The notes: generated by a model from the sequence alone, not told the origin. A DNA stretch of 64,000 bases from Thermoanaerobaculum sp. (GCA_021154885.1 JAJKHS010000080.1:62001-126000), one strand, 5' to 3'; counted from the stretch's first letter, positions 1,102-18,569 are shown. A program made the numbers and translations.

Positions 1102-1233
1102 ACTGAACCTGGAGAGTCTACATCCTTGCCGCCGCCTTATCGCTCACCCGTGCTACCATAGAGACGGTCGGAGTTGCGTGGTCACAAGTTTCGTGATGTG
1201 ATCCCGCGACCCGTCGGGGAAAGGCAGGCACGC

Positions 1234-1714
1234 ATGAGCGCTCTTTTGCTCGAGCAGGAGATCGAATACCCCACCTCCGACGGCCAGCCCATGGCCGAAA
1301 CCCCAGAGCACGTCCAGGCGATCTTCGACCTCCTCCACGGGTTGCAACGTCGCTATGTCACGACGCCGGACGTCTGGGTGGGAGCCAACTTCTTCCTCTT
1401 CTACGAGAGGGGAAATCCCAAGGCCCGCGTGTCTCCGGACGTGATGCTGGCCAAGGGGGTCGCCCCAAGGGGACCGGCAAAACTACCTGCTCTGGCGGGA
1501 GCCTCCCCCGAGCCTGGTGGTGGAGGTGACGTCGCGCAAGACCCGGCGCAAGGACTCGGGACCCAAGAAAACGCTATACGAGCGGATCGGCACCGAGGAG
1601 TACATCCTCTTCGATCCCTTCGGGGATTACCTGCGGCCGCGGTTGCAGGGCTTCAGGCTGCGGCGCAGCCGCTATCAGCCCATTCCTGAAACGAAGAGAG
1701 ACGCGAGAAAATGA
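1234..1714 (+). pseudogene. Uma2-family (DUF820) endonuclease-like gene, frameshifted and short
   Basis: Two reading frames carry consecutive parts of one Uma2-like (PD-(D/E)XK fold) protein. The first, from ATG 1234, runs through ARVSPDVMLAKGV. The second resumes with YLLWREPPPSLVVEVTSRKT. The break falls at about 1460-1475, in a stretch with runs of C and G, so it is a one-base indel or a sequencing error there. The second frame ends at 1714 soon after YILFDPFGDY, earlier than usual for the family (about 180-200 residues). Uma2 proteins are common, multi-copy and of unclear function. Correcting one base would restore a protein of about 160 residues, still short at its C terminus. Confidence 0.75.
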
Positions 1715-1746
1715 GAGGATGAGGCAGGAGTAAGACTACCGCGTCG

Positions 1747-2520
1747 ATGAAGACTTCAGTTCCGTGGCCAAGGCTCGAGGCTGCCTACGAAGCGCGGGTC
1801 AGCACTCGGGCGCAGCGCTCGGTGTCCGCTCACGAGGCGCAAGATCTGAAGTTTGCGGCTGGTCGGTTGGCCGAAGGCAAGGCGATCGGCGAGCTCCTAG
1901 CGGCCAGGTTCAGCGGGCCGGTGCGCGTCCTCGACCTGGGATCTGGCAATGGCGGAGTCGCGTCCGGTGTTGCGAACTTCGAGAGGATGACCGTCGTGGC
2001 GCTGGACCACCGCTTCAATCCCGACCTTCAGCGCCTGTGTTCCGAGACCGGTTTGCGCGTGTTGCAGGTGCTCGGAAACGGCGAGGCTCTGCCGTTTCGG
2101 GACGAGGCCTTCACTGCCGTCCTGTGCCTGGAAACGATCGAGCATGTCTCTCGCCCGGCGCTGCTGGGCGCCGGAATCTTCCGCGTGCTCCGCACCGGGG
2201 GGCTGTGCATGCTGACCACGCCGCCACGGCTGAAGTATCTGTTCCGGCGAGACCCGCATTTCGGAATCCCAGGCCTGCTGGCGCTCCCGGATGGTTTGCA
2301 GCGGCTTGTGGTCACCCGTATCTTTCGCCGTGTCAGCCGTCGAGAGTACGACGTCCAGCATATCTACTGCTACGCAGGCTCCATTGCCCGGTTGTTTCCA
2401 GGACGAAAAATCTTTCAGGGAGTGGGGCAGCCGCCGTCGAACGTGGTGGCAAGGCTGTTCTGGTCGATCCGGCAGAGGTTCTCCTGGGAACGGCTGCTCA
2501 TCTGGAAAGTCGACGCCTGA
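1747..2520 (+). CDS. Class I SAM-dependent methyltransferase (type 11 like)
   Basis: A 257-residue protein with the class I methyltransferase core. Motif I is VLDLGSGNG at 61-69, followed by the acidic strand end ALDHRF and a post-II region ending VLCLETIEHV near residue 134. The 'LxTIEHV' form is typical of methyltransferase 11/12 enzymes that act on quinone, sugar or lipid intermediates. The C-terminal third is rich in Arg and hydrophobics (RIFRRVSRREY), which may help membrane association. It stands alone between the broken Uma2 gene and a convergent DUF481 gene, so context gives no substrate. Confidence 0.8.
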   Translation: MKTSVPWPRLEAAYEARVSTRAQRSVSAHEAQDLKFAAGRLAEGKAIGELLAARFSGPVRVLDLGSGNGGVASGVANFERMTVVALDHRFNPDLQRLCSETGLRVLQVLGNGEALPFRDEAFTAVLCLETIEHVSRPALLGAGIFRVLRTGGLCMLTTPPRLKYLFRRDPHFGIPGLLALPDGLQRLVVTRIFRRVSRREYDVQHIYCYAGSIARLFPGRKIFQGVGQPPSNVVARLFWSIRQRFSWERLLIWKVDA

Positions 2521-2532
2521 CAGATCTGGCCG

Positions 2533-3387
2533 TCAGAGCTTGAGCTCGATCTGTACGATGCCCGCGACGTCGTTTCTCTTGACGGTCGGATCGGCGGGCT
2601 TGCGCTTGTATTCGTCGATCAGGCCGACTTTGAGCTCGAGGTGCTCGGCGACCTCGGCGCCGAGCGCCATGTCGAAGTGGTAGTAAGCATCGGCAAAATC
2701 GCTCGTCTTCCAGAGCGCGAAGGCGCCCTCGGTGAGGTTTGCCGATTTCGAGATTTTCCAGGAGAAGTTCTCGCCCGCCCGTACCGCGCCGCTGCTCGTG
2801 CGGTCGACGTCCGTGTCCTTCTCGAAAATGGCACCCGCTCCGAGATCCGCGGTCAGCTCCCGCTCGTCGGTCTTGATCAGGCGGACGCCGACGCCGGCTG
2901 TGGGAGAGAAGAGGTAGTCGATCTCCTTGAACCGGTCCCTCAGGTACTGAGCGTCTCCGAACACGAACCAGCGGGGCCGGAAGTAGTACTCGTCACGGAG
3001 TTGGGCGAAGGTGCGGTCGACGGTGCTCTCGCCGTTCTCGGAGTTGCGGAGATAGAAGGCGTCGGCCTTGACGAGGTTCTTCGTCCGCGGGTCGTACTGG
3101 CCGGAGAGCGCCAGGTTGAAGCTCCGGGTGCTGCTGTTGCCGCTGGTGAAGTTGAAGCCGGCGGCGAACTTGCCGGTGAGAGGCTTGGGCTTTTTCTTAT
3201 CCTTGTCCTCAGGCTCCTTCGGCTTGTTCTCCGCCTCCTGGGCGAGGGCGTCGCCGGTGGGCTTGTCCGCGGCTCCCGGTGGCGGCGGCGAAGGGGGAGC
3301 AGCCTGTTGCGGCGCCTGGGCCTCCGCGAGGCCGAACGCTGCCAGCATGCAGACTGACAAGACGAAGATCGTGATCCTTCGATTCAC
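2533..3387 (-). CDS. DUF481 outer-membrane beta-barrel protein (YdiY-like)
   Basis: A 284-residue secreted protein. I start it at GTG 3387, preceded by GAGGGAGG; the frame stays open upstream to 3591 but that part is not protein-like. Residues 1-24 form a signal peptide (hydrophobic core ending AEAQA). A Pro- and Lys-rich linker follows (about 25-72, with KEPEDKDKKKPKPL). From about 73 the sequence alternates as amphipathic strands (GKFAAGFNFTSGNSSTRSF) and ends IVQIELKL, as in DUF481 barrels. DUF481 proteins sit in the outer membrane; E. coli YdiY is described as salt-induced, function unknown. It converges on the methyltransferase gene with 12 bp between. Confidence 0.8.
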   Translation of the reverse strand: MNRRITIFVLSVCMLAAFGLAEAQAPQQAAPPSPPPPGAADKPTGDALAQEAENKPKEPEDKDKKKPKPLTGKFAAGFNFTSGNSSTRSFNLALSGQYDPRTKNLVKADAFYLRNSENGESTVDRTFAQLRDEYYFRPRWFVFGDAQYLRDRFKEIDYLFSPTAGVGVRLIKTDERELTADLGAGAIFEKDTDVDRTSSGAVRAGENFSWKISKSANLTEGAFALWKTSDFADAYYHFDMALGAEVAEHLELKVGLIDEYKRKPADPTVKRNDVAGIVQIELKL

Positions 3388-3590
3388 GGGCTCACCCTCC
3401 CTCAAATTACGGTTTGGTACAGCGGCAGGAGAGATGAGCAAATCCGATGCCATCGAGGAGGGGAAGACTTCAGGGCTCCCGCTGTCCCGTCTCCGAGCAC
3501 GGCCTGCACCTTTTCTATTGAGGCCCCGCTCTCCGGTTGGACGCTCAAAGACCTTCCACGCTGAATCCTCTCGACCGAAAGGAGAACGCA

Positions 3591-3944
3591 ATGCGCAAGA
3601 ACCTGTTCGGATTAGTGATCGCAGCCGCCGCCCTGCTGGCCGTCTTGAGCGTGGGGCCGGCCTGCGCCGCCGACCTCGCCGGCAACCCGGCCGCCGTCGC
3701 CGCGGTGACAGCGCCCTCGCCGCTGCCGGCCAACTGTGGGACGGGAGTCGTCCTCCCTAGCCAGACCGCGGGGGCCGAGACCTGCCCGGCCGCTCCTGTG
3801 ACCGAGAGCACCGTCCCCGCTTTCATGAATCCGCCGGAACACCGCCTGGGTTACTGCCACTGCGGCTGCGTGAACCAGCGTGTCTGCCGGACCAGCGCCG
3901 ACTGCGGCGGCGCCTCCTGCGATCAGGCGATCTCCTGCTGCTGA
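3591..3944 (+). CDS. Small secreted protein with Cys-rich C terminus
   Basis: A 117-residue protein started at ATG 3591, six bases after AAAGGAG; an in-frame start at 3537 lacks such a site. Residues 1-25 are a signal peptide (hydrophobic run ending ACAA). A Pro/Ala-rich middle with two cysteines leads to a compact tail in which the last 30 residues hold eight cysteines, beginning YCHCGC and ending ISCC. This suggests a disulfide-bonded or metal-binding exported module. I recognise no family. It is divergent from the DUF481 gene. Other small Cys-containing secreted proteins occur at 16276-16758 and 60976-61197, but they align poorly with this one. Confidence 0.65.
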   Translation: MRKNLFGLVIAAAALLAVLSVGPACAADLAGNPAAVAAVTAPSPLPANCGTGVVLPSQTAGAETCPAAPVTESTVPAFMNPPEHRLGYCHCGCVNQRVCRTSADCGGASCDQAISCC

Positions 3945-3996
3945 GCCCTTTGGGGGCCGGACTCCTCAGGGGCGGCCCGTCGGGTCGCCCCATCTC

Positions 3997-5844
3997 CTAC
4001 CGCCGCACGGTGATCCCGAGTTGGACCAGCCGCGGCGCCCCCAAAGTCTCCAGCGGCGTGCGGCCGGTAGTAACCTTTTCATTGAAGAGATTCTCGGCCG
4101 AGAGGAAGACCTCCACGCGGTTCCCCAGGGGGCGGCGCAACGCGAGGTCCGCCACGAAGAAGGACGGCAGGGGAAGCTGGTTCAGATCGTCGTCGAACTG
4201 GGAGCCCGCCCAGCGGCCCTGGAGGAGGACGAGCACCGGGCCGGCCCAGGTGAGGCCCAGGGAACCCTGGTTGAGGGGAGCCTGCGGCACCCGCAGGCCC
4301 GTGCGCTCCACCCGCGAGTCCGAGTAGAGATAGGACGCCTGCACCTGCCAGCGGTCGAAGAGCCGGAGCCGCGCCTCGGCTTCGAGGCCGTCGACCGTCA
4401 CCCGGTCCAGGTTCTCCCGCCGGCGGGTGATGAGCTGCGGAGTGACCGAGAGGGTGACGTTGCCCACGGCACCATCCAGCCGGTTGTGGAAGGCGTTGAC
4501 GCGGACGAAGACTCGGGAGCTCGGGACGAGGTCGGCCCCGATCTCGGCGCCCAGCAGGCTCTCCTCCCCCAGGTTCGGGTTGGCGTCCGTCTCGACGTTG
4601 CCCACCCGGAACGGCCGGTAGAGCTCGTTGAGGGTCGGAGCCCGAAAGCCCCGATACAACGAGCCGCGCAGGGTGATGGCGTCCGTGGCCCGGAAGAGGG
4701 CGCCGACGCGCGGGTTGAAGCTGGAGCGGGTGCGCTGGCTCGCCCAGAGGTCGAAGCGGCCGCCCGCGAGGAGATCGAGACGGGGAGAGACGCCCACGGT
4801 CTGCTGGGCATAGAGGCCGCCCAGGGTCTGATCCTGGACGTCCCAGGAGGCGCGGCGCAGGTCCGCTCCCACCAGCAGGCCGCTGCCGGAGCGCCAGGCG
4901 GCCGATCCCCCGAAGCCCTGGGTGCGGAAGTCCTGCTCGGCGGTGAGAAACTCGCGCGAGCGATCCGGCAGGATGCGGGAGAAGGTGCTCTGAAAGCGCT
5001 GGGTCTGGCCGTAGAGGTCCCAGATCCAATGCTCGCCGCCATAACCCGCGTCGAGCGTCTGGAGGCTCGTGTCGTTGCGTTGCAGGGCCGTGCCGTTCCC
5101 CCGGTTCTCGTGGAAGACGTTCAAGCCCGCGTGATAGCTCCCCCACTGGAAGCGGCCGTAGAGGGTGCCGAAGCCCACGGTGGCGCGGCGGTCCACGGCG
5201 CCGCGGTCCTCGGGGGAGAGGATGTAAAAACCGTTCGTATCGAAGAGGCGGCCGGCGAGGGTCCAGCCCCAGGGCTTTCCACCGGTGGAAGCGTCGGAGG
5301 CAAAGACCTCGGCGTCGCTGGTGGTGCGGTCGCCGCCGCGGACGCTGGCCTCCAGCGTGCCTGGCCGCGGAGCCCGGGGGAGGAGCTGGATGGCCCCGCC
5401 CAGGGCCGCGCTGCCATAGAGCTGCGAGAGCGCGCCCCGCGCCACCTCGACCGATTGCAGGGCCGAGACGGGCAGACGGTTCCAATAGACCCAGCCGCCA
5501 AAGGGGTCGTTCAGCGGCGTGCCGTCGAACAGGACCAGGGTGCGGCTCGCCCCGCTGGGTCCGAGGCCACGCAGCGAGACACCCTGCGAGGTTGGGTGGG
5601 CCGTCAAGCTGCTCGAGCGGCGCAGCAGGCTGAAGCCGGGGATCTGGCGGAGCTGATCGTCGAGAGTCAGGCTGGGCGAGCGGGCCAGGTCCCCGCGGCT
5701 GAGGGCGGAGGTGGCGGAGACCGCGTCCACCAGACGCTGCTCGCTCTTGGCGGCGGTGACGACGAGGGTGTCGGCGAAGGAGGGACCCTCCTCAGGGTTG
5801 GCAGCCTGCAACAGGGCGAGAAGAAAGAGGAGATTGAGGCCCAT
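3997..5844 (-). CDS. TonB-dependent outer-membrane receptor, last gene of the XoxF/caa3 operon
   Basis: A 615-residue receptor. It has a short signal peptide, a TonB-box-like DTLVVTA just after it, a plug domain (VSLRGLGPSGASRTLVLFDG and later RGALSQLYGSAALGGAI) and a 22-strand-type barrel with closing motifs (YRGFRAPTLNELY, NPNLGEESL, LFNEKVTTGRTPLETLG). It ends GITVRR rather than in the usual aromatic residue. It starts 8 bp after the YVTN propeller gene, so it belongs to the PQQ-dehydrogenase operon. From that context I infer a substrate connected with the enzyme: PQQ (as for E. coli PqqU/YncD) or a lanthanide chelate (as for methylotroph LutH). A siderophore or cobalamin substrate cannot be excluded by sequence alone. 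Confidence 0.9.
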   Translation of the reverse strand: MGLNLLFLLALLQAANPEEGPSFADTLVVTAAKSEQRLVDAVSATSALSRGDLARSPSLTLDDQLRQIPGFSLLRRSSSLTAHPTSQGVSLRGLGPSGASRTLVLFDGTPLNDPFGGWVYWNRLPVSALQSVEVARGALSQLYGSAALGGAIQLLPRAPRPGTLEASVRGGDRTTSDAEVFASDASTGGKPWGWTLAGRLFDTNGFYILSPEDRGAVDRRATVGFGTLYGRFQWGSYHAGLNVFHENRGNGTALQRNDTSLQTLDAGYGGEHWIWDLYGQTQRFQSTFSRILPDRSREFLTAEQDFRTQGFGGSAAWRSGSGLLVGADLRRASWDVQDQTLGGLYAQQTVGVSPRLDLLAGGRFDLWASQRTRSSFNPRVGALFRATDAITLRGSLYRGFRAPTLNELYRPFRVGNVETDANPNLGEESLLGAEIGADLVPSSRVFVRVNAFHNRLDGAVGNVTLSVTPQLITRRRENLDRVTVDGLEAEARLRLFDRWQVQASYLYSDSRVERTGLRVPQAPLNQGSLGLTWAGPVLVLLQGRWAGSQFDDDLNQLPLPSFFVADLALRRPLGNRVEVFLSAENLFNEKVTTGRTPLETLGAPRLVQLGITVRR

Positions 5845-5852
5845 GGGTCACC

Positions 5853-6869
5853 TCAGCGCGGCCCGATCGCCACACCCCACGCCCCCTGCCCGGCCGGAAT
5901 AGTGGCCACGACTTTGAGGGTCGCGGCGTCGAGCACGGAGACGTCATTGGAGACGCCGTTGGCGGTATAGATCTTCTTGCCGTCCCGGGTGACGGCGATT
6001 CCCCAGGGCCGCTTGCCCACGGGCACGTTGGCGAGCAGCTTCCCGGTCATCGCATCGAGCACGGCGACGGCGTTGCCGTGGCCGTTGGCGACGTAAACGC
6101 GCCTGCCGTCTGGCGAGACGACGACGCCCACGGGGTGGGAGCCGGGAATGGGAATGGATTTCAGCACCTGGTGCCGGGTGGTGTCGATCACGGAGACCGT
6201 GCCGCCGATCTCGGCGGTCACCCAGGCCCGCTTGCCATCGGGCGAGAAGGCGGCGGCGCGGGGGCGCGGGTCCACCAGGAAGCTCGCCACCACCTTGTTG
6301 GCCCGGGTGTCGATCACCGAGACGGTGTTGCTCGTCTCCGCCGTGACGTAGACCCAGCGGCCGTCGGGGCTCAGGGCCACGCCCTCGGGCTCGATGCCCA
6401 CCACCAGCGCCGCGACGACCTTCTGCCGTTTGACGTCGGTGACCGTGGCCGTGCCGGCGTCCTCGTTGGAGGCGTAGAGGCGGGAGCCGTCGCGGCTGAG
6501 GGCGAAGCGCTCGGGATTGCTGCCGGCGTCGAAGCGCGCCACGACCTTGCGGGTGGCGGTGTCGAGGGCCACGATGGCATCGCCGGGCCCCTGGACGTTG
6601 TGGTCGAGGTCGCTCAGGGCGACGTAGACCCGTCTGCCATCCGCGCTGACCTCGATCCCCCGCGGCCGGGAGCCCACGTTGACGGTGCCAACCACCTTGT
6701 CGGTTGCCGTGTCGATCACCGTCACCGTTCCGGCCAGCTCGTTGGAGACCCAGGCCAGGGGGGCGGCGGCAACAGGGACTGTAAATAGCAGGAAAGAAAT
6801 TAAAAAATCCGCTGCGTTTCGGCGAAGGTTGTAGGGGCGCAATTCATTGCGCCCGGCGGTGCGGCTCAT
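5853..6869 (-). CDS. YVTN-type seven-bladed beta-propeller, PQQ-system associated (YncE-like)
   Basis: A 338-residue protein, exported by an N-terminal hydrophobic segment (ISFLLFTVPVAAA), then made almost wholly of repeats of the form SPDGRRVYVAN..SNTVSVIDT. Six to seven repeats are visible, consistent with one propeller. Propellers of this kind accompany PQQ-dependent alcohol dehydrogenase clusters, and E. coli YncE is encoded next to the TonB receptor YncD, as here. Its role is probably periplasmic binding. The start overlaps the upstream gene by 4 bp. The first codons (GRNELRPYNLRR) contain a 20-bp palindrome at 6835-6854, so the N terminus looks extended by a repeat insertion ahead of the true signal peptide. 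Confidence 0.85.
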   Translation of the reverse strand: MSRTAGRNELRPYNLRRNAADFLISFLLFTVPVAAAPLAWVSNELAGTVTVIDTATDKVVGTVNVGSRPRGIEVSADGRRVYVALSDLDHNVQGPGDAIVALDTATRKVVARFDAGSNPERFALSRDGSRLYASNEDAGTATVTDVKRQKVVAALVVGIEPEGVALSPDGRWVYVTAETSNTVSVIDTRANKVVASFLVDPRPRAAAFSPDGKRAWVTAEIGGTVSVIDTTRHQVLKSIPIPGSHPVGVVVSPDGRRVYVANGHGNAVAVLDAMTGKLLANVPVGKRPWGIAVTRDGKKIYTANGVSNDVSVLDAATLKVVATIPAGQGAWGVAIGPR

Positions 6870-7567
6870 TCCTGCACCTCCTTCACCAGCTTCCCCGCCG
6901 CATCCACCAGATACACCGGCTGCACGAGGTGATGATCCTGAGGATCGAAGCCGAGCTGCGCCCCCTTGTGGCCGTCGAAACGCATCGTGGCGAGGGCTTT
7001 TTGAAGATCCTCGACCGCACCCGCGGGAGAGCGCAGCGCGACTTCGGCGGCGACCTTCACGGCCATCCAGCCCCGCCAGGCCTCCTCGTCCATGGGGGCG
7101 TCGTAGCGGCGGCGGAAGCGCAGGTTGAGGCTGTCGGCGCCATAGTGCTTCAGGTCCGGGTGCCAGTCGGCGACGTGAACGTCCTGGCGATCCCCCAGGG
7201 CCCGGCGGCGCGTCGCCGGGCTGGAGGCGACGTGGAAGACCCTGGGGCGGACGGGGGACGGCGCATCCAATGGAGCTACGGTGAAGAAGAGGACTCGCGA
7301 TTCCTCGGCCGGCGCCGTCTCCCCCACCAGGGCGTGGACGGCGGAGCCGGTGGCGGTCAGCTCGAGCTTCACCTGCAGCAGTCCGGCCGTCTGACGCGCC
7401 TCCTCCGCTGCCATCGTCGCACCTTTCCCGGCGGACCCGGGCGGCAGGAGGAGACCGATCTGGATCACCCGCGGAATCGGGCCGGCTGCCAGGGCCGGCC
7501 GCACGCCGAGCCTGGCCAGGACGCCGGCGGCGAGGAGCGACCGGAGGAGCTCGCGGCGGGTGGTCAT
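6866..7567 (-). CDS. ABC-type substrate-binding-like protein of PQQ alcohol dehydrogenase systems
   Basis: A 233-residue protein with a twin-arginine-like leader (MTTRRELLRSLLAAGVLARLG, cleavage near LAAG). The body begins IQIGLLLPPGS, as in type I periplasmic binding folds, and has LNLRFRRRYDAPMDEEAWRG, a pattern seen in the binding protein that accompanies PQQ-dependent alcohol dehydrogenases. It is shorter than usual for that family (normally over 300), as if the central part of the first lobe were reduced. No ABC permease or ATPase lies in the operon, so it may act as an accessory factor rather than in transport. It overlaps both neighbours by 1-4 bp. Confidence 0.7.
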   Translation of the reverse strand: MTTRRELLRSLLAAGVLARLGVRPALAAGPIPRVIQIGLLLPPGSAGKGATMAAEEARQTAGLLQVKLELTATGSAVHALVGETAPAEESRVLFFTVAPLDAPSPVRPRVFHVASSPATRRRALGDRQDVHVADWHPDLKHYGADSLNLRFRRRYDAPMDEEAWRGWMAVKVAAEVALRSPAGAVEDLQKALATMRFDGHKGAQLGFDPQDHHLVQPVYLVDAAGKLVKEVQE

Positions 7568-7953
7568 CAGCGCAGAGTGTAGAGGAAAGCCGCGATGTCC
7601 CGGCCGTCCTGCTCGCCGACCCCCATCTCGGGCATGGCGGAGCCGGGCTCGATCGCCTGGGGATCGCGGATCCAGCGGATCATGTTCTGCGGCTCGTTGG
7701 GCAGCCGGCCGGCCAGATAGGCCCGCTTGGCGATGCCGTCGAGGGGAGGCCCGATGGTGCCGTCGGCCCCGGAGACGCCCGGGATGGTGTGGCAGGACTC
7801 GCAGCCATACTTGCGGACGAGCCCCTTGCCCCGGCCCGGCTCGCCGCCCGTCATCGCCGCCGCCTGCCGCTCGACGCTGCCGCCGCAGCCGCAGAGCATG
7901 GAGAGGGCCAGCGCCAGGCCGGCGGCCACGGCCCCTTGGCTCTCACGCCTCAC
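7567..7953 (-). CDS. c-type cytochrome, monohaem lipoprotein
   Basis: A 128-residue protein. The N terminus ends in a lipobox-like SMLCGC, so it is probably anchored in a membrane on the outer face. One haem site, CESCH (residues 50-54), and a C-terminal methionine ligand region (GSAMPEMGV) make a class I cytochrome c. Its start overlaps the end of ctaG by 11 bp, and its stop overlaps the next start by 1 bp, so translation is likely coupled. In this operon it is a candidate electron carrier between the dehydrogenase and the oxidase. Confidence 0.88.
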   Translation of the reverse strand: MRRESQGAVAAGLALALSMLCGCGGSVERQAAAMTGGEPGRGKGLVRKYGCESCHTIPGVSGADGTIGPPLDGIAKRAYLAGRLPNEPQNMIRWIRDPQAIEPGSAMPEMGVGEQDGRDIAAFLYTLR

Positions 7954-8869
7954 GTTCTGTCCCCCCTCTTTCGAGCGATCGCAGCAGCACCTCGCTGCGG
8001 GTGTGAGCCACCCGGCGCTCGGCCTCCCCCAGCCAGGCCGCGAACAGGGCCAGCCCCAGCACGATGAAGAGGATCCCGGCCGGCACCCACATGATGAGCC
8101 CGGCGAGCTGCTGGTCCTCCAGCGCCGAGAGGCCCCAGGCCGCCGTCCGCGCCTCGTAGATGGGGTACCAGAGCCGCGGCGCGAAGGTGAGGAGGGCGCC
8201 CAGGACGCCGCTGTGCAGCGAGGTGGTGAACACGTAGAGCACGGCCGCGCCGTAGCCGAGCCGGCCGAAGCGGCCGTGGACCAGCGCCCACCAGAAGAGG
8301 GCGGCGCTGACGAAGAAGCTGAGGTGCTGGCAGGCGTGGATCAGCTCGTCGTCCAGCGTGGCCTGGTAGAGGGATGGCAGGTGCCAGATCCAGAGGGCCA
8401 CGCCGTGAATCAGCCAGACGGCGAGGGGCGCCGTGAGGAGCCCCCAGACGGCGGTCACGGCCGGCCCTTGCGCCCACCGCCCCGCCCGCTCGCGGCCGGC
8501 CGGGGGGAGGGCCCAGACGAAGGTGGCGAGCGGCCGGCCCAGCACCATCAGGGGCGCCGCCACCAGGATCAGCACCTCGTGCTGGGCCATGTGGGCCGAG
8601 AAGAGGATCTCGCCGAGCCTGTCCAGGGGCGAGATCAGGGCCAAAATCAGGGCGAGCCATCCCGCGGCGAAACAGGCCGCCTGCCAGCGGCGGATCCCCT
8701 GGCCGGCCCCGGCCCGGCGCCACAGCCGGGCGAGGCCCACGGCGTAGAGCCCGCCCGAGAGGGCCAGCAGGACCAGGACCCACGGGTCCCACGTCCACCA
8801 GCCGAGGATGGCGCCGGCCGAGAGGTGGTGTCCGCCTGTGTGAGCGAGGAGCCATGGAGCGAAGATCAC
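7943..8869 (-). CDS. ctaG: Cytochrome c oxidase assembly protein, CtaG (caa3 type)
   Basis: A 308-residue polytopic protein. I start it at GTG 8869, which overlaps the TGA of the upstream gene (GTGA); a longer open frame upstream is not protein-like. Seven hydrophobic segments are visible. Conserved family features include SAHMAQHEVLILVAAPLMVL and the later WIWHLPSLY and HACQHLSFF motifs, whose histidines probably handle copper or haem. CtaG of the caa3 type helps assemble the CuB centre of haem-copper oxidases. Its place after the subunit III gene fits that role for the oxidase encoded here. Confidence 0.9.
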   Translation of the reverse strand: MIFAPWLLAHTGGHHLSAGAILGWWTWDPWVLVLLALSGGLYAVGLARLWRRAGAGQGIRRWQAACFAAGWLALILALISPLDRLGEILFSAHMAQHEVLILVAAPLMVLGRPLATFVWALPPAGRERAGRWAQGPAVTAVWGLLTAPLAVWLIHGVALWIWHLPSLYQATLDDELIHACQHLSFFVSAALFWWALVHGRFGRLGYGAAVLYVFTTSLHSGVLGALLTFAPRLWYPIYEARTAAWGLSALEDQQLAGLIMWVPAGILFIVLGLALFAAWLGEAERRVAHTRSEVLLRSLERGGTEREA

Positions 8870-9252
8870 TGGCACACCCCCAGCACAAACTTCGGCACCT
8901 CCAGCGCCAGGATCGCCACCACGAACGCGGCGCCGAGCGCCGCTCCGTACCGGGCCAGGAAGCGCGCCCGGGAGCTCTCCGGCTCTCCTGCCTCCGTGGA
9001 GCCTGCCGGCAACCGCCGGCCGACGCTCCAGGCGAGCGCCGCCCCGCCCGCGGCGAGGAGCAGCGAGAGGAGGCCCACGGCGAAGAGCATCCACTTCGTC
9101 CCCGCGGCGCAGGCGGTGGGCGCCAGCGAGTAGCTCGCGAATTCGTTGAGCGCGAAGGCGAAGGGGCCGGTCAGCGCAGCCAGTACCAGGAGGGCGTCCC
9201 GCCTCGGCAGCGGCGGGTTCGGTTCGATGCTCGGAGCAGGCATGGCGCTCAA
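8866..9252 (-). CDS. Small membrane protein of the oxidase cluster
   Basis: A 128-residue protein with three predicted membrane segments (about 20-43, 53-75 and 104-125) and a charged cytoplasmic stretch between the second and third (GSTEAGEPESSRARF). I do not recognise a family. It lies between subunit III and ctaG, 13 bp after coxC, and its stop overlaps the ctaG start. It is likely a minor oxidase subunit or assembly factor; this is inference from position only. Confidence 0.65.
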   Translation of the reverse strand: MSAMPAPSIEPNPPLPRRDALLVLAALTGPFAFALNEFASYSLAPTACAAGTKWMLFAVGLLSLLLAAGGAALAWSVGRRLPAGSTEAGEPESSRARFLARYGAALGAAFVVAILALEVPKFVLGVCQ

Positions 9253-9265
9253 TTCCTCAGCAGGC

Positions 9266-9889
9266 TCAACGGACCTGGAGCAGCCCGGGGTCGAGAAAGA
9301 AGATGCAATAGAACACCACCCACGCCAGCACCACGAAGTACCAGTACATGCTGTTGAGCCGCAGGTCGACCATGTGCTTGTCCTCCACCGGCCCCTTGAG
9401 CAGGAGGGCGAGGAAGAGAAGGTTCTCGCCCGTCCCCGTGAGCACGTGCGTGGTGTGGAGCGCCGCCGCGATCCAGACCACCGAGCCGTAGGCGTGGCTG
9501 TCCCAGCGGAAGGTCAGGCCGGTGAGGATGAAGCCCCGCACCGCCAGGAACGCCACCATCAGCACGGTGGAGACGAGCAGCCAGAGGCGGATTCCCTTGA
9601 GGTCCTGCCGCCCCGCCGCCCTGGCCACCAGGTACATGGGGACGATGCTGGCGAGGAGGATCGCCAGGTTGAGCGTGGTGATCCCGAGCCCCGGGTGGCG
9701 CACGCCCGTCGGCGGCCATTCCACGGCGGCACCGCGCAGGTAGAAATAGGTGGCGACGAGGATGGCGAACATCGTCCCCTCGATGGCCATGATCCCGGTG
9801 ACTCCCCACCAGAGCGGAGCCCGGGGGCCGTCGGCGACCGTGGGCAGGCCGGAGACGTCCAGGGCGGGCTTTTCTGCAATCGCGCTCAT
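9266..9889 (-). CDS. ctaE: Cytochrome c oxidase subunit III
   Basis: A 207-residue protein started at ATG 9889, which overlaps the coxA stop (ATGA). It has five membrane helices, like the short bacterial subunit III of caa3 and related oxidases. Family signatures seen are GIMAIEGTMFAILVATYFYL, the AALHTTHVLTG histidine motif and WYFVVLAWVVFYCIFF at the end. Subunit III stabilises subunit I in the inner membrane. Confidence 0.92.
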   Translation of the reverse strand: MSAIAEKPALDVSGLPTVADGPRAPLWWGVTGIMAIEGTMFAILVATYFYLRGAAVEWPPTGVRHPGLGITTLNLAILLASIVPMYLVARAAGRQDLKGIRLWLLVSTVLMVAFLAVRGFILTGLTFRWDSHAYGSVVWIAAALHTTHVLTGTGENLLFLALLLKGPVEDKHMVDLRLNSMYWYFVVLAWVVFYCIFFLDPGLLQVR

Positions 9890-11817
9890 GACCTCTTCTC
9901 CATGATCACGTCGCGGTCCATGTCCCCCCGCGGCCAGAACCACGCGATCAGAGCCACGGCACAGGGCACGGCGCCGACGACGAAGCCCCAGGGATTGAAG
10001 ATGGCGTAGATGAAAGTCATCGCCACGCCGCAGGCGAGGATGAAGGGCCAGATCGTGGGACCGGGCAGCACGTCGCGATGGTCCGGCTCGGCGTCGAGGA
10101 GGTTGGTCACCAGCATCTCCCGGCGGTCGCTGCGCAGGCCGGTGACTTCCGGCTGGTCGTCGCGGCGGGACCACAGGGCGTAGCGGCCGGCGACCGTGGG
10201 CAGGCGCAGGAAGTTGTAGGACGGCGGCGGCGAGGAGGTGGACCACTCCAGGGTATCCGCCCCCCAGGGGTCGTCGCCTGCCATCTCGCCGTGACGCAGG
10301 CTCTGGAGGGCGTTGACCACGAAGACCAGGACGCCGAGGCCGAGAATGCCGGCGCCGATCGTGGCCAGGAGGTTCAGGTCCCCCCAGCCGGTCTCCGGAA
10401 GATAGGTGTAGACCCGCCGCGGCATGCCCTGAAGACCGAGCTGGTGCATGGGGAAGAAGGTCACGTTGAAGCCCACGAAGACCAGCCAGAAGCTGAGCCT
10501 CCCCAGCCGCTCCGAGAGCCGCCGACCCGTCATCTTGGGCAGCCAGAATGAGAGTCCGCCCAGCAAGGGGAAGACGGCGCCGCCGATCAGCACGTAGTGG
10601 AAATGGGCGACGACGAAGAACGTGTCGTGCACCTGGAGGTCGAGCGGCACCGAGCCGAGCATGACGCCCGTCAGGCCTCCGATCACGAAGACGAAGAAGA
10701 AGCCGAGGACGTAGAGGAGAGGCGTCGTGAAGCGCGGCCGGCTCCCCCAGAGAGTCGCGAGCCAGCAGAAGATCTGGGTGCCGCTGGGGATGGCGATCAT
10801 CAGGCTCGCCGCGGTGAAGAAGCTCGCCCCGAGCTGCGGCAGGCCGGTGGCGAACATATGGTGCACCCACAGGCCGAAGCCGATGAAGCCGGTGGCCACC
10901 AGCGACATCACCATCGGCAGGTAGCCGAAGACCTCGCGGCGGGTGGAGGCGGCGATGATCGAGGAGACCATCCCCAGCGCCGGAATGAAGATGATGTAGA
11001 CCTCCGGATGGCCGAAGAACCAGAACAGGTGCTGCCAGAGCAGGGCGTCGCCCCCCTCAGAAGGATTAAAGAAGTGGGTGTCCACCAGCCGGTCCAGGGC
11101 GAGCATCAGCGAGCACAGCATCACCGCCGGCATGGCGAAAACCACCATGAACGAGGTCACCAACTGCGACCAGACGAAGAGCGGGACGCGGTTGAGCGAC
11201 ATGCCCGGAGCCCGGTGCTTGAAGATGGTGGTGATGAGGTTCACGGCCACGGCGAGCGAGGAGATCTCGGTGAAGGTGATCATCTGCGCCCAGATGTCGA
11301 CCCGCTTGCCGGGGGAGAACGCCGGCCCGGAGAGGGGGACGTAGGCGAACCAGCCGGCGTCCGGCCCGGTGTTGGTGAACAGGCCGGCGTAGAGCAGCAG
11401 GCCGCCAGCCACGTAGACCCAGTAGGAGAAGGCGTTGAGGCGGGGGAAGGCGAGGTTGCGGGTACCGATCATCAGCGGCACGAGGTAGGTCCCCATACCC
11501 AGCATGATGGGCACGGCAAAGAGGAACATCATGGTCGAGCCGTGCACGGTGAAAAGCTGGTCGTAGCGGTCCGGCCCGATCAGGCGCGCCTCGGGCCGGG
11601 CGAGTTGCAGCCGCATGAGCAGCGCCTCGATCCCGCCGAGCGCGAAGAAGACCAGGGCGGTGCCGACGTAGCGCTTGCCGATCGCCTTGTGGTCCACGTC
11701 CGTGAGCCACCCCCGGAGGCCTTTGGGGGACCACCAGGTCCGCTCCAGCCGGCGCCGTTCCTCGGCGTCCGCGTTCTCGCCGGCGTAACCGACGTCCTCC
11801 ACTTCCGCGACGCTCAT
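9886..11817 (-). CDS. ctaD: Cytochrome c oxidase subunit I with altered D and K proton channels
   Basis: A 643-residue haem-copper oxidase subunit I. All metal ligands are present: low-spin haem His92 (TVHGSTMM), the CuB His270/Tyr274 pair with the nearby glutamate (HPEVY), His319-His320 (WVHHMF), and the haem histidines in DTFFVVAHFHYV (405, 407). The active glutamate of HPEVY (272) is kept. Two proton-channel residues are not standard: the D-channel aspartate of the usual GARDVAFPRLN is Asn121 here (GTRNLAFPRLN), and the K-channel lysine of PTGxKIF is Gln348 (PSGTQIF). A C-terminal extension after residue 520 carries two more hydrophobic segments, resembling a fused subunit IV. It catalyses O2 reduction; pumping ability is uncertain. 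Confidence 0.95.
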   Translation of the reverse strand: MSVAEVEDVGYAGENADAEERRRLERTWWSPKGLRGWLTDVDHKAIGKRYVGTALVFFALGGIEALLMRLQLARPEARLIGPDRYDQLFTVHGSTMMFLFAVPIMLGMGTYLVPLMIGTRNLAFPRLNAFSYWVYVAGGLLLYAGLFTNTGPDAGWFAYVPLSGPAFSPGKRVDIWAQMITFTEISSLAVAVNLITTIFKHRAPGMSLNRVPLFVWSQLVTSFMVVFAMPAVMLCSLMLALDRLVDTHFFNPSEGGDALLWQHLFWFFGHPEVYIIFIPALGMVSSIIAASTRREVFGYLPMVMSLVATGFIGFGLWVHHMFATGLPQLGASFFTAASLMIAIPSGTQIFCWLATLWGSRPRFTTPLLYVLGFFFVFVIGGLTGVMLGSVPLDLQVHDTFFVVAHFHYVLIGGAVFPLLGGLSFWLPKMTGRRLSERLGRLSFWLVFVGFNVTFFPMHQLGLQGMPRRVYTYLPETGWGDLNLLATIGAGILGLGVLVFVVNALQSLRHGEMAGDDPWGADTLEWSTSSPPPSYNFLRLPTVAGRYALWSRRDDQPEVTGLRSDRREMLVTNLLDAEPDHRDVLPGPTIWPFILACGVAMTFIYAIFNPWGFVVGAVPCAVALIAWFWPRGDMDRDVIMEKRS

Positions 11818-11830
11818 TTCAATCTCCCAC

Positions 11831-12778
11831 TCATTTCAGGCCGTCCAGAAAGGCCAGCAGGGCCTCGAGGTCGTTCGATCCAAGGCTGGTGGCCGGCATG
11901 GGGTTGCTGGGCTTGAGGGTCTGGGAGTCGACGATCCAACCCGCCAGGTGGCCCGGGGTGTTGGGCAGCGTGCCTGCGGCCAGGGTGCGGCGGCTGGCGA
12001 GGTGGGTGAGGTCCGGCCCGATCCGGCCGTTGGCGTCCGTGCCCTGGACCGTGTGGCAGAGGGCGCACTGGAGCTGGACGAAGAGATCGTGGCCCCGTTG
12101 CGCGAGCGGCGTCGCCGGCGGCGAGGCCGACTGCCGCTGGGCGGCGAGCCAGCCGGCGAAGCGCGCCGGCGATTCGGCGACCACCAGGAACGCCATGTGG
12201 GCGTGCTGATGGCCGCAGAACTCGGCGCACTGCCCGCGGTAGACGCCCGGCCGGTCGGCCTGCAGCCAGAGCTCCCCGTCGTAGCCGGGGATCAGGTCGT
12301 GCTTGCCGTGCAGGTTCGGCACCCAGAAGCTGTGAATCACGTCATGGGACACCGTGCGGATGCGGATCGGCCGGCCGACCGGGATGTGGATCTCGTTGGC
12401 GGTGGTCACCCGCTGCGCCAGCACCGGGTCGAGATATTGGACCTCCCACCACCACTGGTGCCCCGTAACCTCGACGGACACCGGATCGGCAGAGGAGAGC
12501 GAGGCGAGGGCCCGCCCCGTCCCCGTGCTGGCGAAGAGGAAGACGAAGAGAATGAGGGCCGTCGCGATCACCGCGCCGGTCACCACCCGGTTCATCCGCC
12601 GCCGCGCCGGCTCTTCCTCCCGCACCAAGCCGGCCGCGAGGGCGGCCATCACCAGCAGGAAGACCGCCGAGCAGACCCAGAACATCAGCCACCAGAGATC
12701 GCCGATGCGCGCCGCCTGCGGCCCGGCCGGGTCGAGGGCGGAGTGGCCGGCAAAAGCGAGGAGACAGGTCCAGCTCAT
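11831..12778 (-). CDS. ctaC: Cytochrome c oxidase subunit II with fused cytochrome c (caa3 type)
   Basis: A 315-residue protein started at ATG 12778, overlapping the upstream stop (ATGA). Two membrane helices (about 25-52 and 65-85) precede the CuA cupredoxin domain, with its ligands in HDVIHSFWVP and CAEFCGHQHAHM. A C-terminal cytochrome c domain has the haem site CALCH and a late methionine ligand (NPMPATS). The fusion is diagnostic of caa3 oxidases, which accept electrons directly from periplasmic or membrane-bound cytochrome c. Confidence 0.95.
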   Translation of the reverse strand: MSWTCLLAFAGHSALDPAGPQAARIGDLWWLMFWVCSAVFLLVMAALAAGLVREEEPARRRMNRVVTGAVIATALILFVFLFASTGTGRALASLSSADPVSVEVTGHQWWWEVQYLDPVLAQRVTTANEIHIPVGRPIRIRTVSHDVIHSFWVPNLHGKHDLIPGYDGELWLQADRPGVYRGQCAEFCGHQHAHMAFLVVAESPARFAGWLAAQRQSASPPATPLAQRGHDLFVQLQCALCHTVQGTDANGRIGPDLTHLASRRTLAAGTLPNTPGHLAGWIVDSQTLKPSNPMPATSLGSNDLEALLAFLDGLK

Positions 12779-13320
12779 TGCGGGTGCTCCGCTTTTTGCC
12801 CGCGGGGGGCCGCGGGCGAGGTGGCCTGCTCGGAGCGCCGCGCCTCCATCTGGTCGCTGCGGTCGGGCTCCGCCGCCTTGGGCGCGAGACCGGACAGGGT
12901 GCGCACGTAAGCCTCGATTTTCCAGATCTGGTCGTCCGGGACGTGGCCCCCATAGGAAGGCATGCCGTTGGGCCGGCCCTCGACGATGGTGTCGTAGATG
13001 TTCTGGGGATCGCTGCCGTAGATCCACTTGGCGTCCATCAGCGGCGGACCGATGCCGCCGCCGCCGTGGAAGTGGCAGCCCGAACAGTTGTACTGGTTGA
13101 AGAGCCGCTCGCCCTCGGAGATGGCCCAGGCGTTCTCGTCGTAGGGTCCGTGGCCGGAGCGGGCGGGCAGGGACTGTCCGGGCTGGAGCGTGGTCAGCCG
13201 CACCGGTTGCGCCCGGGCGCTCTTCGCGGGCAGCGTCTGGAACCGGCGCTCCTCCCGCTCGCAGGCGAGCGCCGCGAAGGTGAGGGCCAAGGCACAGAGT
13301 CCGGTCGCAAGGCGTCGCAT
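12775..13320 (-). CDS. c-type cytochrome, monohaem lipoprotein (possible dehydrogenase partner)
   Basis: A 181-residue protein started at ATG 13320 after GGGAGGG. It has a lipobox-like FAALAC, one haem site (CSGCH in YNCSGCHFHGGGG) and a methionine ligand region (GRPNGMPSYGG). A charged C-terminal tail follows. It lies between the dehydrogenase pair and the oxidase, 14 bp after the XoxJ-like gene, so it is the best candidate for the electron acceptor of the dehydrogenase, doing the job of XoxG/cytochrome cL, although its sequence is not clearly of that family. Confidence 0.85.
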   Translation of the reverse strand: MRRLATGLCALALTFAALACEREERRFQTLPAKSARAQPVRLTTLQPGQSLPARSGHGPYDENAWAISEGERLFNQYNCSGCHFHGGGGIGPPLMDAKWIYGSDPQNIYDTIVEGRPNGMPSYGGHVPDDQIWKIEAYVRTLSGLAPKAAEPDRSDQMEARRSEQATSPAAPRGQKAEHPQ

Positions 13321-13334
13321 GGTGATCCCTCCCA

Positions 13335-14180
13335 TCAAGCCGCTCCAGGCGATCCTGCCGGCGTTGGCCGTGGCACGCCGTAGCGATCGAGCAGCGCGTC
13401 GATCTCCCCTCGCCGGCGCTCGAGGACGGCGTCGATCTCCCCGCGCAGCCGCTCGTCCCCCCGGCGCACCCCCACGGCGATGTCGTAGACGAAGGGGAGG
13501 AACGGCAGGTCGATCTGCGGCGCGACGGGCACCAGGGCCAGCGCCACCGGCTCGCGCGGCGCGAAGTAGCCGGCCAGGGGTCCCCAGACCACGGCGACGT
13601 CGATCTCGCCGGAGGCCACCGCGTCGAGGATGCGGGCCGGCGGGTTCGGCCGGGCGTAGTCGCCGTAGACCGTGTAGCCGGTGACGTTGTCGACGATGCC
13701 GCGGGCCGCCAGGGCGTGGACCGGGGGGGTGTTGGCGTAGTCGTTGCCCACGATCTGGACGCCGATCCGCAGCCGCTTGAGCGCCGGATCGTTGAACGAG
13801 CGGATCTTGAATCCACGGTCCCGGCGGTAGACGAAGACGTAGGTGGAGCGGTAATACGGCCGTGTCGGCGCCACCATCTGCAGGCTCGCGGGCACCCCCA
13901 GCACGACGTCGCAGACGCCGGCCTTCAGCGTGTTGCGGAAGAAGCCGCGGCGCTGCGCCCACCAGGTGTAGCGCACGGAGGCGCCGAGATCGCGGGCGAC
14001 GATCTCCGCCAGCCGGTTCTCGAATCCCTCCAACCGCCGATTCGAGAACGGCAGGTTATTGGGATCGGCGCAGACCCGCAATTCCCGGGCTGCCCGCGGC
14101 GGCGCCGGCCGGGCGCAGGCGCCGGCAAGGAGCGCCAGAATCGCGAGAGCCAGGAGGGCTCTACGGCAGCGCGAAGACAT
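13335..14180 (-). CDS. xoxJ: XoxJ/MxaJ-like periplasmic binding protein
   Basis: A 281-residue lipoprotein-like protein (lipobox LLAGAC) with the type II periplasmic-binding fold: RVCADPNNLPFSNRRLEGFE, then GVCDVVLGVPAS and YYRSTYVFVYRRDRG. This is the quinoprotein-dehydrogenase-associated binding protein family that includes MxaJ and XoxJ. XoxJ is thought to bind and help mature the XoxF enzyme rather than transport a solute. It overlaps the dehydrogenase gene by 20 bp, as expected for a partner. Confidence 0.85.
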   Translation of the reverse strand: MSSRCRRALLALAILALLAGACARPAPPRAARELRVCADPNNLPFSNRRLEGFENRLAEIVARDLGASVRYTWWAQRRGFFRNTLKAGVCDVVLGVPASLQMVAPTRPYYRSTYVFVYRRDRGFKIRSFNDPALKRLRIGVQIVGNDYANTPPVHALAARGIVDNVTGYTVYGDYARPNPPARILDAVASGEIDVAVVWGPLAGYFAPREPVALALVPVAPQIDLPFLPFVYDIAVGVRRGDERLRGEIDAVLERRRGEIDALLDRYGVPRPTPAGSPGAA

Positions 14181-16056
14181 ACAGCATCCCCCCCGGCGTC
14201 GTCTTCTGCGGCAGGTCCTTCATGGCGTTGACGAACCCCAGGGCCGCCGTGCCGTCCCGCGGGTCGAGGCCGGCGGCGACGATGGCGCCGGACCAGCCGC
14301 CGACCCCTGAAAAAATGGCCACGTACTGCTTGCCATCCGGTCCCTTGTAGGTGATGGGCTGGCCGATGATCCCGGAGCCGGTCTTGAACTTCCACAGCTC
14401 CTTGCCGGTGTGGGCGTCGAGGGCCTTGAACCAGCCCTCCATGGTGCCGTAGAAGACGACGTCGCCGGCCGTGACCAGGGCGCCGCTCCAGGCCGGGAAC
14501 GGCTCCGGCACGCTCCACACCGCGCGCCCGGCGGCCGGGTCCCAGGCGGTGAAGGCGCCACGGTTGCCCCCCGGCCCCGCGTACATCCGCACGTTGGCCC
14601 CCACGAACGGCGTGCCGGCGATGTAGTTGGCCTCCACTCCCTCCTCGTCCATGCACAGGTTGTTGTGCGGCATGTAGAGCAGCCCGGTGCGCGGCGAGAA
14701 GGCCGAGGGCTGCCAGTCCTTGGCTCCCGGCGCCGCCGGGCAGACGTCGCGCACGATGTGGCCGAAGCCGGTCTTCTTGTCCGGCGCCTCGATCAGGCGG
14801 CCGGTCTTGAGGTCCACCCCCCGCGAGGAGGTGACGTGGACGAACGGATTGGCCGAGAGCACCTCGCCCGTGACGCGGTCGAGGACGTACACGTAGCCGT
14901 TGCGCTCCGGCCGCACCAGCACCTTACGCCGCTGGCCGTGCTGGCCCTGAAGTTCGAGATCGAGCAGCACGTTCTCGTTGATGCCGTCGTAGTCGTAGAG
15001 GTCGTGGGGACTCCACTGGTAGAACCAGCGGGCCTCGCCCGTGTCGGGATCGCGGGCGAAGATGCCGGCCGTCCACTTGTTGTCGCCCGGCCGGATGTCC
15101 GGGTTCCAGGGGCCGGGATTGGCCGTCCCGTGATAGATCAGATTGAGCTCGGGATCGTAGGAGATCCAGCCCCACATGGTGCCGCCGCCGATCTTCCAGG
15201 CGTCCGGCGGCCAGGTGGAGACCCCGAGATCCTTGCCGCGGTCCTGCGGATAGAACGGTTTGAACCTGGGGCCGATCAGCACGTCCTTGTCCGGGCCGGT
15301 GCTGTAGGCCCGCCAGGCGATCCTGCCGCTGCCGGAGTCGAGGGCCGTCAGCCAGCCGCGCACCCCGAACTCGCCGCCGCTGTTGCCCACCAGCACCTTG
15401 CCCTTCACCACCAGGGGCGCCATGGTGATCGACTCGCCCTTGTTGATATCGGCCACCATCGTGCGCCACACCTCGCCGCCCGCCGCCGCGTCGACCGCCA
15501 CCGTCTGGCCGTCCAGCGTGTTGTAGTAGATCTTGCCGTCGTCGTAGGCGGCGCCGCGGTTGACCACGTCGCAGCAGGCCACCCCCTGGGCCGCGGGCAG
15601 CACCGGCGGCTCGTACTTCCACTTGAGCGGCGCTCCGGGCTGGGTGAGGTCGAGGGCGTAGAGGATGTTGGGAAACGGGGTGACGACGTACATCGTGCTC
15701 CCCACCACCAGCGGCGCCCCCTCGTGGCCCCGCACGTTGCCGGTGGAGAACGTCCACGCCGGCTTGAGCTGGGCGACGTTGGCGGTATTGATCTGGGCGA
15801 GCGCGCTGTAGCGGGTGCTGGCGTAGTCCTTGGCCGGCATCAGCCACTGGCCGTCGTCTTGTTGGGCTGGGGGCTGGCCGGCCACCCGCGCGCCGGCGAG
15901 CGCGGCGCTACGGGCCGGCGCCGCGGGCTTGCCGTCCTCCTTGGAGGCTCGGGTGCGACAGCCCGCCAGCCCCAGAGCCAGGCCCAGGGCGAGGATCGCA
16001 CCACGATAAAACTGCTCGGAGCCTTCCCATCGGTGACCCGAGGCCGTATCTCGCAT
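14161..16056 (-). CDS. xoxF: PQQ-dependent alcohol dehydrogenase, XoxF-like, probably lanthanide-dependent
   Basis: A 631-residue quinoprotein. I start at ATG 16056, after GGGAGA; an upstream in-frame start at 16227 gives an unlikely leader. The leader ends in a lipobox (ALGLAGC, Cys33), so it may be membrane-tethered, unlike soluble XoxF. The eight-bladed propeller carries the adjacent cysteines of the PQQ site (VACCD, 161-162) and the metal ligands Glu229 (GGEFGVRG) and Asn313 (TANPGPWNP). The catalytic Asp355 and an extra Asp357 lie in HDLYDYDGIN. An aspartate two residues after the catalytic one marks lanthanide enzymes; calcium MxaF has alanine there. First gene of a 12-gene operon. Substrate is methanol or another primary alcohol. 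Confidence 0.92.
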   Translation of the reverse strand: MRDTASGHRWEGSEQFYRGAILALGLALGLAGCRTRASKEDGKPAAPARSAALAGARVAGQPPAQQDDGQWLMPAKDYASTRYSALAQINTANVAQLKPAWTFSTGNVRGHEGAPLVVGSTMYVVTPFPNILYALDLTQPGAPLKWKYEPPVLPAAQGVACCDVVNRGAAYDDGKIYYNTLDGQTVAVDAAAGGEVWRTMVADINKGESITMAPLVVKGKVLVGNSGGEFGVRGWLTALDSGSGRIAWRAYSTGPDKDVLIGPRFKPFYPQDRGKDLGVSTWPPDAWKIGGGTMWGWISYDPELNLIYHGTANPGPWNPDIRPGDNKWTAGIFARDPDTGEARWFYQWSPHDLYDYDGINENVLLDLELQGQHGQRRKVLVRPERNGYVYVLDRVTGEVLSANPFVHVTSSRGVDLKTGRLIEAPDKKTGFGHIVRDVCPAAPGAKDWQPSAFSPRTGLLYMPHNNLCMDEEGVEANYIAGTPFVGANVRMYAGPGGNRGAFTAWDPAAGRAVWSVPEPFPAWSGALVTAGDVVFYGTMEGWFKALDAHTGKELWKFKTGSGIIGQPITYKGPDGKQYVAIFSGVGGWSGAIVAAGLDPRDGTAALGFVNAMKDLPQKTTPGGMLYVFALP

Positions 16057-16275
16057 CCGCGTCTCCCGTTCCGTCTCCAAACTACGACACCCTTCGGGGG
16101 ATGACGAAAGCAAGAGACGCGCCAAGCTGCGGAAAGACCGCCAGATCCAGAGTAGAAGATGGATTTCGGCCGCGAACCGGCTGTGGAGAGCCTCGCGGGT
16201 GGAAAAACTTGCAAGGGAGGAGCGCAAAGGGCCGGCGAGGCCGACCCCTTCAAGAATCGCGAAAAGACCGCGTAT

Positions 16276-16524
16276 TTACTCGAAGACGATGTCCTGGCAA
16301 TTCGGGGAGTAGTAGATCTGCCAGCCGTCGGGCACCACGCAGGGATTCGGGTAGACGCAGCACTCGCCGGTGTCCGGGTTGCGGGCCGAGACGATCACCT
16401 GGATGCAGGAGCCGGTGAAGCTCTTCCGCGGGCAGTTGTTCGCGCTGGCCGCCCGGTCGAGAGCCAGGAAGCTCAGCACGATGAAGGCCAATCCGATGAG
16501 ACGGAGCTTGAGCATCGAGGACAT
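16276..16524 (-). CDS. Small secreted Cys protein, paralogue of the next gene
   Basis: An 82-residue protein with a strong site (AAGGAGAAGAC before ATG 16524) and a signal peptide (residues 1-28, ending AASA). The mature part has six cysteines and the pattern C-x-QVIVSARNPDTGEC, then a C-x(4)-PC-VPDGW-x-IYY-x(2)-NC. The same pattern occurs in the neighbour at 16552-16758, so the two are a tandem duplication. The (N/D)PxTGEC..PxPCxVPxGW arrangement recalls small eight-cysteine-cluster lipoproteins and protease-inhibitor-like folds, but I would not assign either. Exported, disulfide-bonded, function unknown. Confidence 0.7.
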   Translation of the reverse strand: MSSMLKLRLIGLAFIVLSFLALDRAASANNCPRKSFTGSCIQVIVSARNPDTGECCVYPNPCVVPDGWQIYYSPNCQDIVFE

Positions 16525-16551
16525 GTCTTCTCCTTTCAGATCCTTCCAGAC

Positions 16552-16758
16552 CTACGAGGCGCAACCGGTGTAGGAGATGGTCCAACCCGGCGGCACGGAG
16601 CAGGGAGTAGGGAATTCGTGGCACTCTCCGGTCTTGGGATTGGTCCCCCAGACCACGACGTCGATACAGGCGGCCGCGGGCGCTACCGAGGCGCCCAGAG
16701 CCACGAGACTCAGGGCGATAAAGGCCAGTCCGGCGAGGCGCAGCTTGAGCTTGGACAT
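16552..16758 (-). CDS. Small secreted Cys protein, first of the tandem pair
   Basis: A 68-residue protein started at ATG 16758, with AAGGAGG upstream. Residues 1-30 are a signal peptide (KLRLAGLAFIALSLVALGA). The mature chain has four cysteines in the same order as its paralogue: C-IDVVVWG, NPKTGEC, PTPC-VPPGW and a C-terminal YTGC. It has lost the extra N-terminal cysteines present in the other copy. The genes are 27 bp apart and each has its own ribosome site. Confidence 0.7.
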   Translation of the reverse strand: MSKLKLRLAGLAFIALSLVALGASVAPAAACIDVVVWGTNPKTGECHEFPTPCSVPPGWTISYTGCAS

Positions 16759-16882
16759 GGTTCTTTCCTCCTTGGGAAGAGTTTTCGGAACCCACCTTAT
16801 CGACGGACGCGCATAAAGTCAACGATGGGAGGAGCGCGGATGAGATAGAATAAGGCTGGACCCTGGAAGAGGAGACAAGCTC

Positions 16883-17520: not shown

Positions 17521-17521
17521 T

Positions 17522-17780: not shown

Positions 17781-17784
17781 GGCG

Positions 17785-18500: not shown

Positions 18501-18569
18501 TCCGATGCATCCGCTCGACACATGTCGTTGACGCCAGAGCGCGCGGAGCAGGGCGCAAGACGAGCGGTA

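Follow-up and report, generated by a model that had tools for sequence, protein, structure and literature searches.

A TonB-dependent receptor family distinct from PqqU, found at the end of a xoxF operon, is a candidate PQQ importer in Acidobacteriota

The window analysed here is a stretch of 64,000 nucleotides from a soil Acidobacteriota bacterium (Thermoanaerobaculum sp.), whose genome (8.2 Mb, 96.6% complete, not closed) has Acidobacteria and Thermoanaerobaculia metagenome bins as its closest named relatives. It carries a minus-strand operon in which xoxF is the first gene and a YVTN propeller and a TonB-dependent receptor, separated by 8 bp, are the final two (Table 1). An earlier note on this DNA had placed such a pair at the end of an operon for a PQQ-dependent and probably lanthanide-dependent enzyme, and coordinates, domains and gene order bear this out. 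The best PDB match of the dehydrogenase is the Methylacidiphilum methanol dehydrogenase (4mae, 700 bits), and alignment of its DYDG motif to that protein places the extra lanthanide Asp two residues past the catalytic Asp (D-x-D), so that both marks of a lanthanide-type methanol dehydrogenase, the TIGR03075 match and the extra Asp, are present.

Table 1. Genes of the xoxF operon, in window coordinates and ordered from the receptor towards the dehydrogenase
Feature	Position	Strand	Evidence
TonB-dependent receptor, 615 aa	3997..5844	minus	Plug and beta-barrel Pfam domains, AF2 model
YVTN beta-propeller, 338 aa, TIGR03866 / PedA2 family	5853..6869	minus	TIGR03866 314 bits, cut-off 287
Short periplasmic-binding-protein-like gene, PedA1 (TIGR03863)-like in C-terminal part	6866..7567	minus	TIGR03863 58 bits, below cut-off 413; Peripla_BP_6 37 bits
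c-type cytochrome	7567..7953	minus	PF00034
CtaG oxidase assembly factor; true start probably further downstream	7943..9094	minus	PF09678 204 bits
Small membrane protein, CoxIII-CtaG interval	8866..9252	minus	ORF, Pfam-negative; similar gene in L058, 40%
Cytochrome c oxidase subunit III	9266..9886	minus	PF00510
Cytochrome c oxidase subunit I	9886..11817	minus	TIGR02891 725 bits
Cytochrome c oxidase subunit II with C-terminal cytochrome c	11831..12772	minus	TIGR02866 159 bits, over cut-off
XoxG-like cytochrome c	12775..13338	minus	Cytochrome c profiles including MoxG 45 bits
MoxJ/XoxJ-like periplasmic protein	13335..14180	minus	TIGR03871 305 bits, cut-off 212
XoxF-type PQQ dehydrogenase, lanthanide-type active site	14161..16227	minus	TIGR03075 656 bits, cut-off 480

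The arrangement is already published and hence not new: in the accessible part of PMC10875860, Fig. 5 gives a xoxF3 cluster of Acidobacteria and Gemmatimonadetes with an identical gene set (xoxF3, XoxJ, XoxG, CoxI-III, the small protein, CtaG, CytC, the propeller as 'YncE' and the receptor as 'TonB'), and the small gene between CoxIII and CtaG is likewise part of the published xoxF3 clusters. That part of the paper draws the receptor without a ligand, suggests in general terms that PQQ may enter via a PQQ TBDT, and contains no family definition, profile or test of the receptor.

The propeller had been described as YncE-like, by analogy to E. coli, but it is not a YncE ortholog. It reaches only 95.7 bits against the YncE model NF052280 (cut-off 400) while passing the curated cut-off of TIGR03866, which assigns it to the PedA2 family. 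PedA2 is one component of PedA1A2BC, a lanthanide ABC transporter of Pseudomonas putida (PMC12997753), and the gene preceding the propeller is partly PedA1-like, although its match to TIGR03863 is confined to the C-terminal part and far from the cut-off. In contrast to PedA1A2BC, the operon contains neither PedB nor PedC, and has an oxidase and an outer membrane receptor instead. These two neighbours, together with the lanthanide-type XoxF in the same operon and the many receptor-bearing genomes that have lanthanide-type dehydrogenases, are what would be expected if the receptor took up a lanthanide chelate for metallation of XoxF, as LutH does. LutH of Methylorubrum extorquens is similar by role, being the TonB receptor of a XoxF organism; its partner in strain AM1 is the Lut ABC transporter. 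No Lut transporter is seen at the receptor locus. The propeller also adjoins the receptor in three related loci (L047, L053 and L058). In the congeneric genome G199, an unrelated opposite-strand reading frame of 890 aa (L048 916-3588 (-)) splits propeller from receptor, showing that their adjacency is not fixed across the genus.

Matches to the Plug domain (PF07715, 70 bits) and the TonB_dep_Rec beta-barrel (PF00593, 139 bits) identify the receptor as a TonB-dependent receptor, and its AF2 model is of good quality (mean pLDDT 88, pTM 0.88). The closest folds are TonB receptors generally, with BtuB first (Z 41); the PQQ-bound PqqU structure (9c4o) superposes with Z 36.2 and an rmsd of 2.1 over 538 residues. 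As judged from the model, the fold match is that of a generic TBDT and does not discriminate between ligands. The sequence is not that of a PqqU. It scores 33.5 bits against NF041535, where the cut-off is 1200; this cut-off is strict, being passed by 0/80 Acidobacteriota genomes, including those with PqqU-like proteins that carry the signature residues. That signature consists of an aromatic residue at plug position 99 together with R304 and R365 (PMC12124388). In our receptor family, position 99 is a gap in 115/115 aligned members, so there is no equivalent of Y99, whereas it is F or Y in the PqqU-like proteins of the phylum. The residues aligned with R304 and R365 are Q/G/N and V/D/S, in a part of the alignment that is unsure at approximately 20% identity. 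The absence of the aromatic residue means that PQQ, if bound, would need a different binding mode. The PqqU-like proteins of the phylum, by comparison, score 280-326 bits over their full length and have F99, R304 and R365. Those of L242-L248 also have a Glu at position 274 and fall far under the NCBIfam PqqU cut-off.

In a tree with PqqU, the PqqU-like proteins of the phylum, BtuB, CirA, FecA and FhuA, the receptor family forms its own clade with support of 100/98. It stands apart from PqqU, and there is no firm grouping with siderophore or cobalamin receptors either. Since both proteins miss their cut-offs and the plug aromatic is absent, a true PqqU-YncE pair was rejected, and what survives of the E. 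coli parallel is functional: PqqU (YncD) is likewise a TonB-dependent receptor of similar overall fold, also occurs in organisms without PQQ synthesis and has the ligand that we propose here, but it is longer (700 aa versus 615) and belongs to another clade. The nearest characterised receptors are CirA and BtuB by sequence (approximately 21-25% identity) and BtuB by fold, as might be expected if this were an ordinary receptor for siderophores, heme or cobalamin that came to its neighbourhood and distribution by coincidence. However, none of the curated models is passed (BtuB TIGR01779, 107 bits of the required 600; siderophore, 104 of 224; hemin, 106 of 317), the family stands in a clade of its own, and the gene neighbourhood is different. 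A cobalamin riboswitch, which is common though not universal upstream of BtuB genes, was found neither in positions 1-20000 of the window nor in 25 related loci; together with the missed TIGR01779 cut-off, this led us to reject a cobalamin receptor.

The host has no match to PqqC anywhere in its 8.2-Mb genome (G000), and for PqqE only generic radical-SAM matches were obtained, the best with 90 bits (cut-off 381); among the pqq genes, this search covered pqqC and pqqE. The PqqC model is over cut-off in 17/396 genomes of the phylum, so it does detect phylum members and its failure in the host is meaningful, suggesting that this bacterium probably cannot make PQQ. No PQQ synthesis genes had been visible to the earlier note, a statement that now extends from the window to the whole genome; with pqqC missing, no complete pqq operon is seen.

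We then asked how the receptor family is distributed relative to PQQ dehydrogenases. A TIGR03075 dehydrogenase scores over cut-off in 37 of 148 relatives, and every one of these 37 genomes also carries the receptor family, while PqqC is over cut-off in none of the 148. Of 396 Acidobacteriota genomes, 99 combine receptor and dehydrogenase, 29 carry the receptor alone, 28 carry the dehydrogenase alone, and the remaining 240 lack the two (odds ratio 29, p = 1e-40), at thresholds (receptor E < 1e-35, dehydrogenase E < about 2e-30) that were chosen after the tables had been seen. The association holds when each family is reduced to a single point (27/7/7/47, p = 5e-10) and when families are treated as strata (Mantel-Haenszel odds ratio 5.6, p = 1e-4), although such profile p values handle relatedness only in part. 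Against PQQ import, and in line with an ordinary receptor, 29 of the 128 receptor-bearing genomes have no TIGR03075 enzyme detected at this threshold. Most of these belong to one family (f27); the counts cover TIGR03075 enzymes, and the 29 genomes may use other quinoproteins. An ordinary siderophore, heme or cobalamin receptor would leave both this profile and the repeated linkage to PQQ enzymes described below unexplained, and we regard it as quite unlikely.

A receptor for PQQ should be less needed in cells that synthesise the cofactor or have PqqU, and both relations are observed. Among dehydrogenase-bearing genomes, the receptor is present in 6/15 with pqqC compared to 93/112 without (p = 8e-4), and within a single genus (g42) in 1/9 compared to 12/12 (p = 4e-5). 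A recheck in which every candidate was scored confirmed that the receptor is absent from the 28 dehydrogenase-bearing negatives and from the pqqC genomes G084 and G336. Of the 19 dehydrogenase-bearing genomes with neither receptor nor pqqC, 6 have a PqqU-like protein (G041, G077, G183, G333, G374 and G395), against only 2 of the 36 compared genomes with receptor and dehydrogenase (G388 and, as a partial match, G353; p = 0.016). G183 is an instructive case: it belongs to family f30, of which the other 14 sampled members have the receptor; the two receptor-bearing f30 genomes that were checked (G028 and G107) have no PqqU-like protein. The separation is not perfect, however: pqqC and receptor occur together in 6 genomes and PqqU and receptor in 2, and in 13 genomes with a dehydrogenase all three are missing, some of these genomes being incomplete but others 98-100% complete. 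At least one further PQQ route may therefore exist, or the dehydrogenases may be fed otherwise. The near-complete (98-100%) genomes with PQQ dehydrogenases and none of the three sources are G179, G187, G349, G405, G426 and G480.

For uptake of a lanthanide chelate, the absence of the receptor where PQQ is made or PqqU is present would lack a reason. Moreover, four of the receptor-free genomes with PqqU (G041, G077, G395 and G333) have dehydrogenases with the lanthanide-type D-x-D motif, showing that lanthanide enzymes do not generally require the receptor. Counts of dehydrogenase motifs were also tried as a discriminator between PQQ and lanthanide, and failed on their own because Ca-type and lanthanide-type enzymes occur side by side in many receptor-bearing genomes.

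Linkage to PQQ enzymes arose more than once. The receptors at the end of xoxF operons come from the genus of the window (the window itself and L086) and from another family of the class (L053 and L058), and they do not form one clade; forcing them together costs 197 log units (AU test, p = 2e-79), by which a single inherited clade of operon-linked receptors is rejected. Two receptor lineages have therefore taken the same 3'-end slot of the xoxF operon, and this repeated occupancy points to a functional tie between receptor and operon. Elsewhere, a family member is followed 27 bp downstream by a Ca-type quinoprotein (L153; WDYT, no lanthanide Asp), which counts against a lanthanide ligand. A TIGR03074-like enzyme lies about 0.2 kb upstream of the family member in L294 and a XoxF fragment 0.5 kb downstream in L110, while PQQ enzymes are divergent to the receptor gene in L158 and convergent in L295. 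Mostly, the receptor stands alone: of 134 receptor loci, the great majority have no PQQ dehydrogenase in the flanking sequence retrieved, and ORFs around a sample of unlinked members revealed no constant neighbourhood. The same is true of E. coli pqqU, which has yncE adjacent and no PQQ dehydrogenase in the stretch examined. At the pqqC loci, no relative of the dehydrogenase queries was found within about 10 kb.

Taken together, the gene neighbourhood, the phylogenetic profile, the lack of pqqC and the inverse association with pqqC and PqqU favour PQQ import, and we consider it likely, going by genomic data, that the receptor is a PQQ importer from a family distinct from PqqU. The earlier note had left the choice between PQQ and a lanthanide chelate. 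The former is the better supported half; the latter fits less well given both inverse relations, the Ca-type neighbour and the two lineages in the xoxF slot, and lanthanide-chelate import is in our view unlikely. Import of a PQQ-metal complex (PQQ-lanthanide or PQQ-calcium), bringing in both cofactors at once, would be consistent with all of the PQQ evidence and with the XoxF operon. Metal co-transport has been proposed for those PqqU homologs whose residue 274 is Glu (PMC12124388), a substitution that also occurs in the Acidobacteriota PqqU-like proteins, but the equivalent position is not alignable in the receptor family. We regard co-import as very unlikely.

For import of PQQ itself, we envisage that free PQQ released by other organisms would be caught at the cell surface by the receptor and pulled across the outer membrane into the periplasm in a TonB-driven manner, where XoxF would be assembled with PQQ and a lanthanide. 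Electrons from XoxF would then pass via the cytochromes of the operon to the cytochrome oxidase that the operon also encodes. As relatives of PedA2 and PedA1, the propeller and the short binding protein may handle cofactor or metal in the periplasm.

PqqU has been found among Acidobacteria only in Vicinamibacteria, and the remaining members were suggested to make PQQ or to depend on diffusion (PMC12124388). We found no report of the present family as an acidobacterial, non-PqqU PQQ importer in the open-access literature, subscription papers and preprints aside. Given its distribution relative to PQQ enzymes, pqqC and PqqU, the family probably represents a second type of PQQ importer that evolved separately. 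We further think it somewhat probable that this whole family, with a PQQ pocket different from that of PqqU, is the main PQQ importer of Acidobacteriota, that genomes tend to hold one of synthesis, PqqU or receptor, and that the family accounts for most of the PQQ supply in a phylum thought to be reliant on synthesis or diffusion. If the receptor family imports PQQ, most sampled quinoprotein-bearing Acidobacteriota would depend on PQQ from their neighbours via a dedicated importer, soil lanthanide-dependent methanol oxidation would be tied to cofactor cross-feeding, and the family would provide a marker for counts in metagenomes.

Some genes around the operon deserve mention. Directly downstream of the receptor lies a gene for a DUF481 outer-membrane-like protein (2533-3591 (-)); no such gene appeared in the flanks retrieved from relatives. 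Next to the receptor, on the other strand, a small secreted Cys-rich protein without Pfam match is encoded (3537-3944 (+)), and in a congeneric bin (L086 2478-3079) the receptor has two neighbours that are weaker relatives of it. On the xoxF side of the operon are two plus-strand genes that, by eye, we take to encode a PIN-domain-like toxin (17050-17520) and a protein resembling EgtB-type ergothioneine synthesis proteins (18450-19895).
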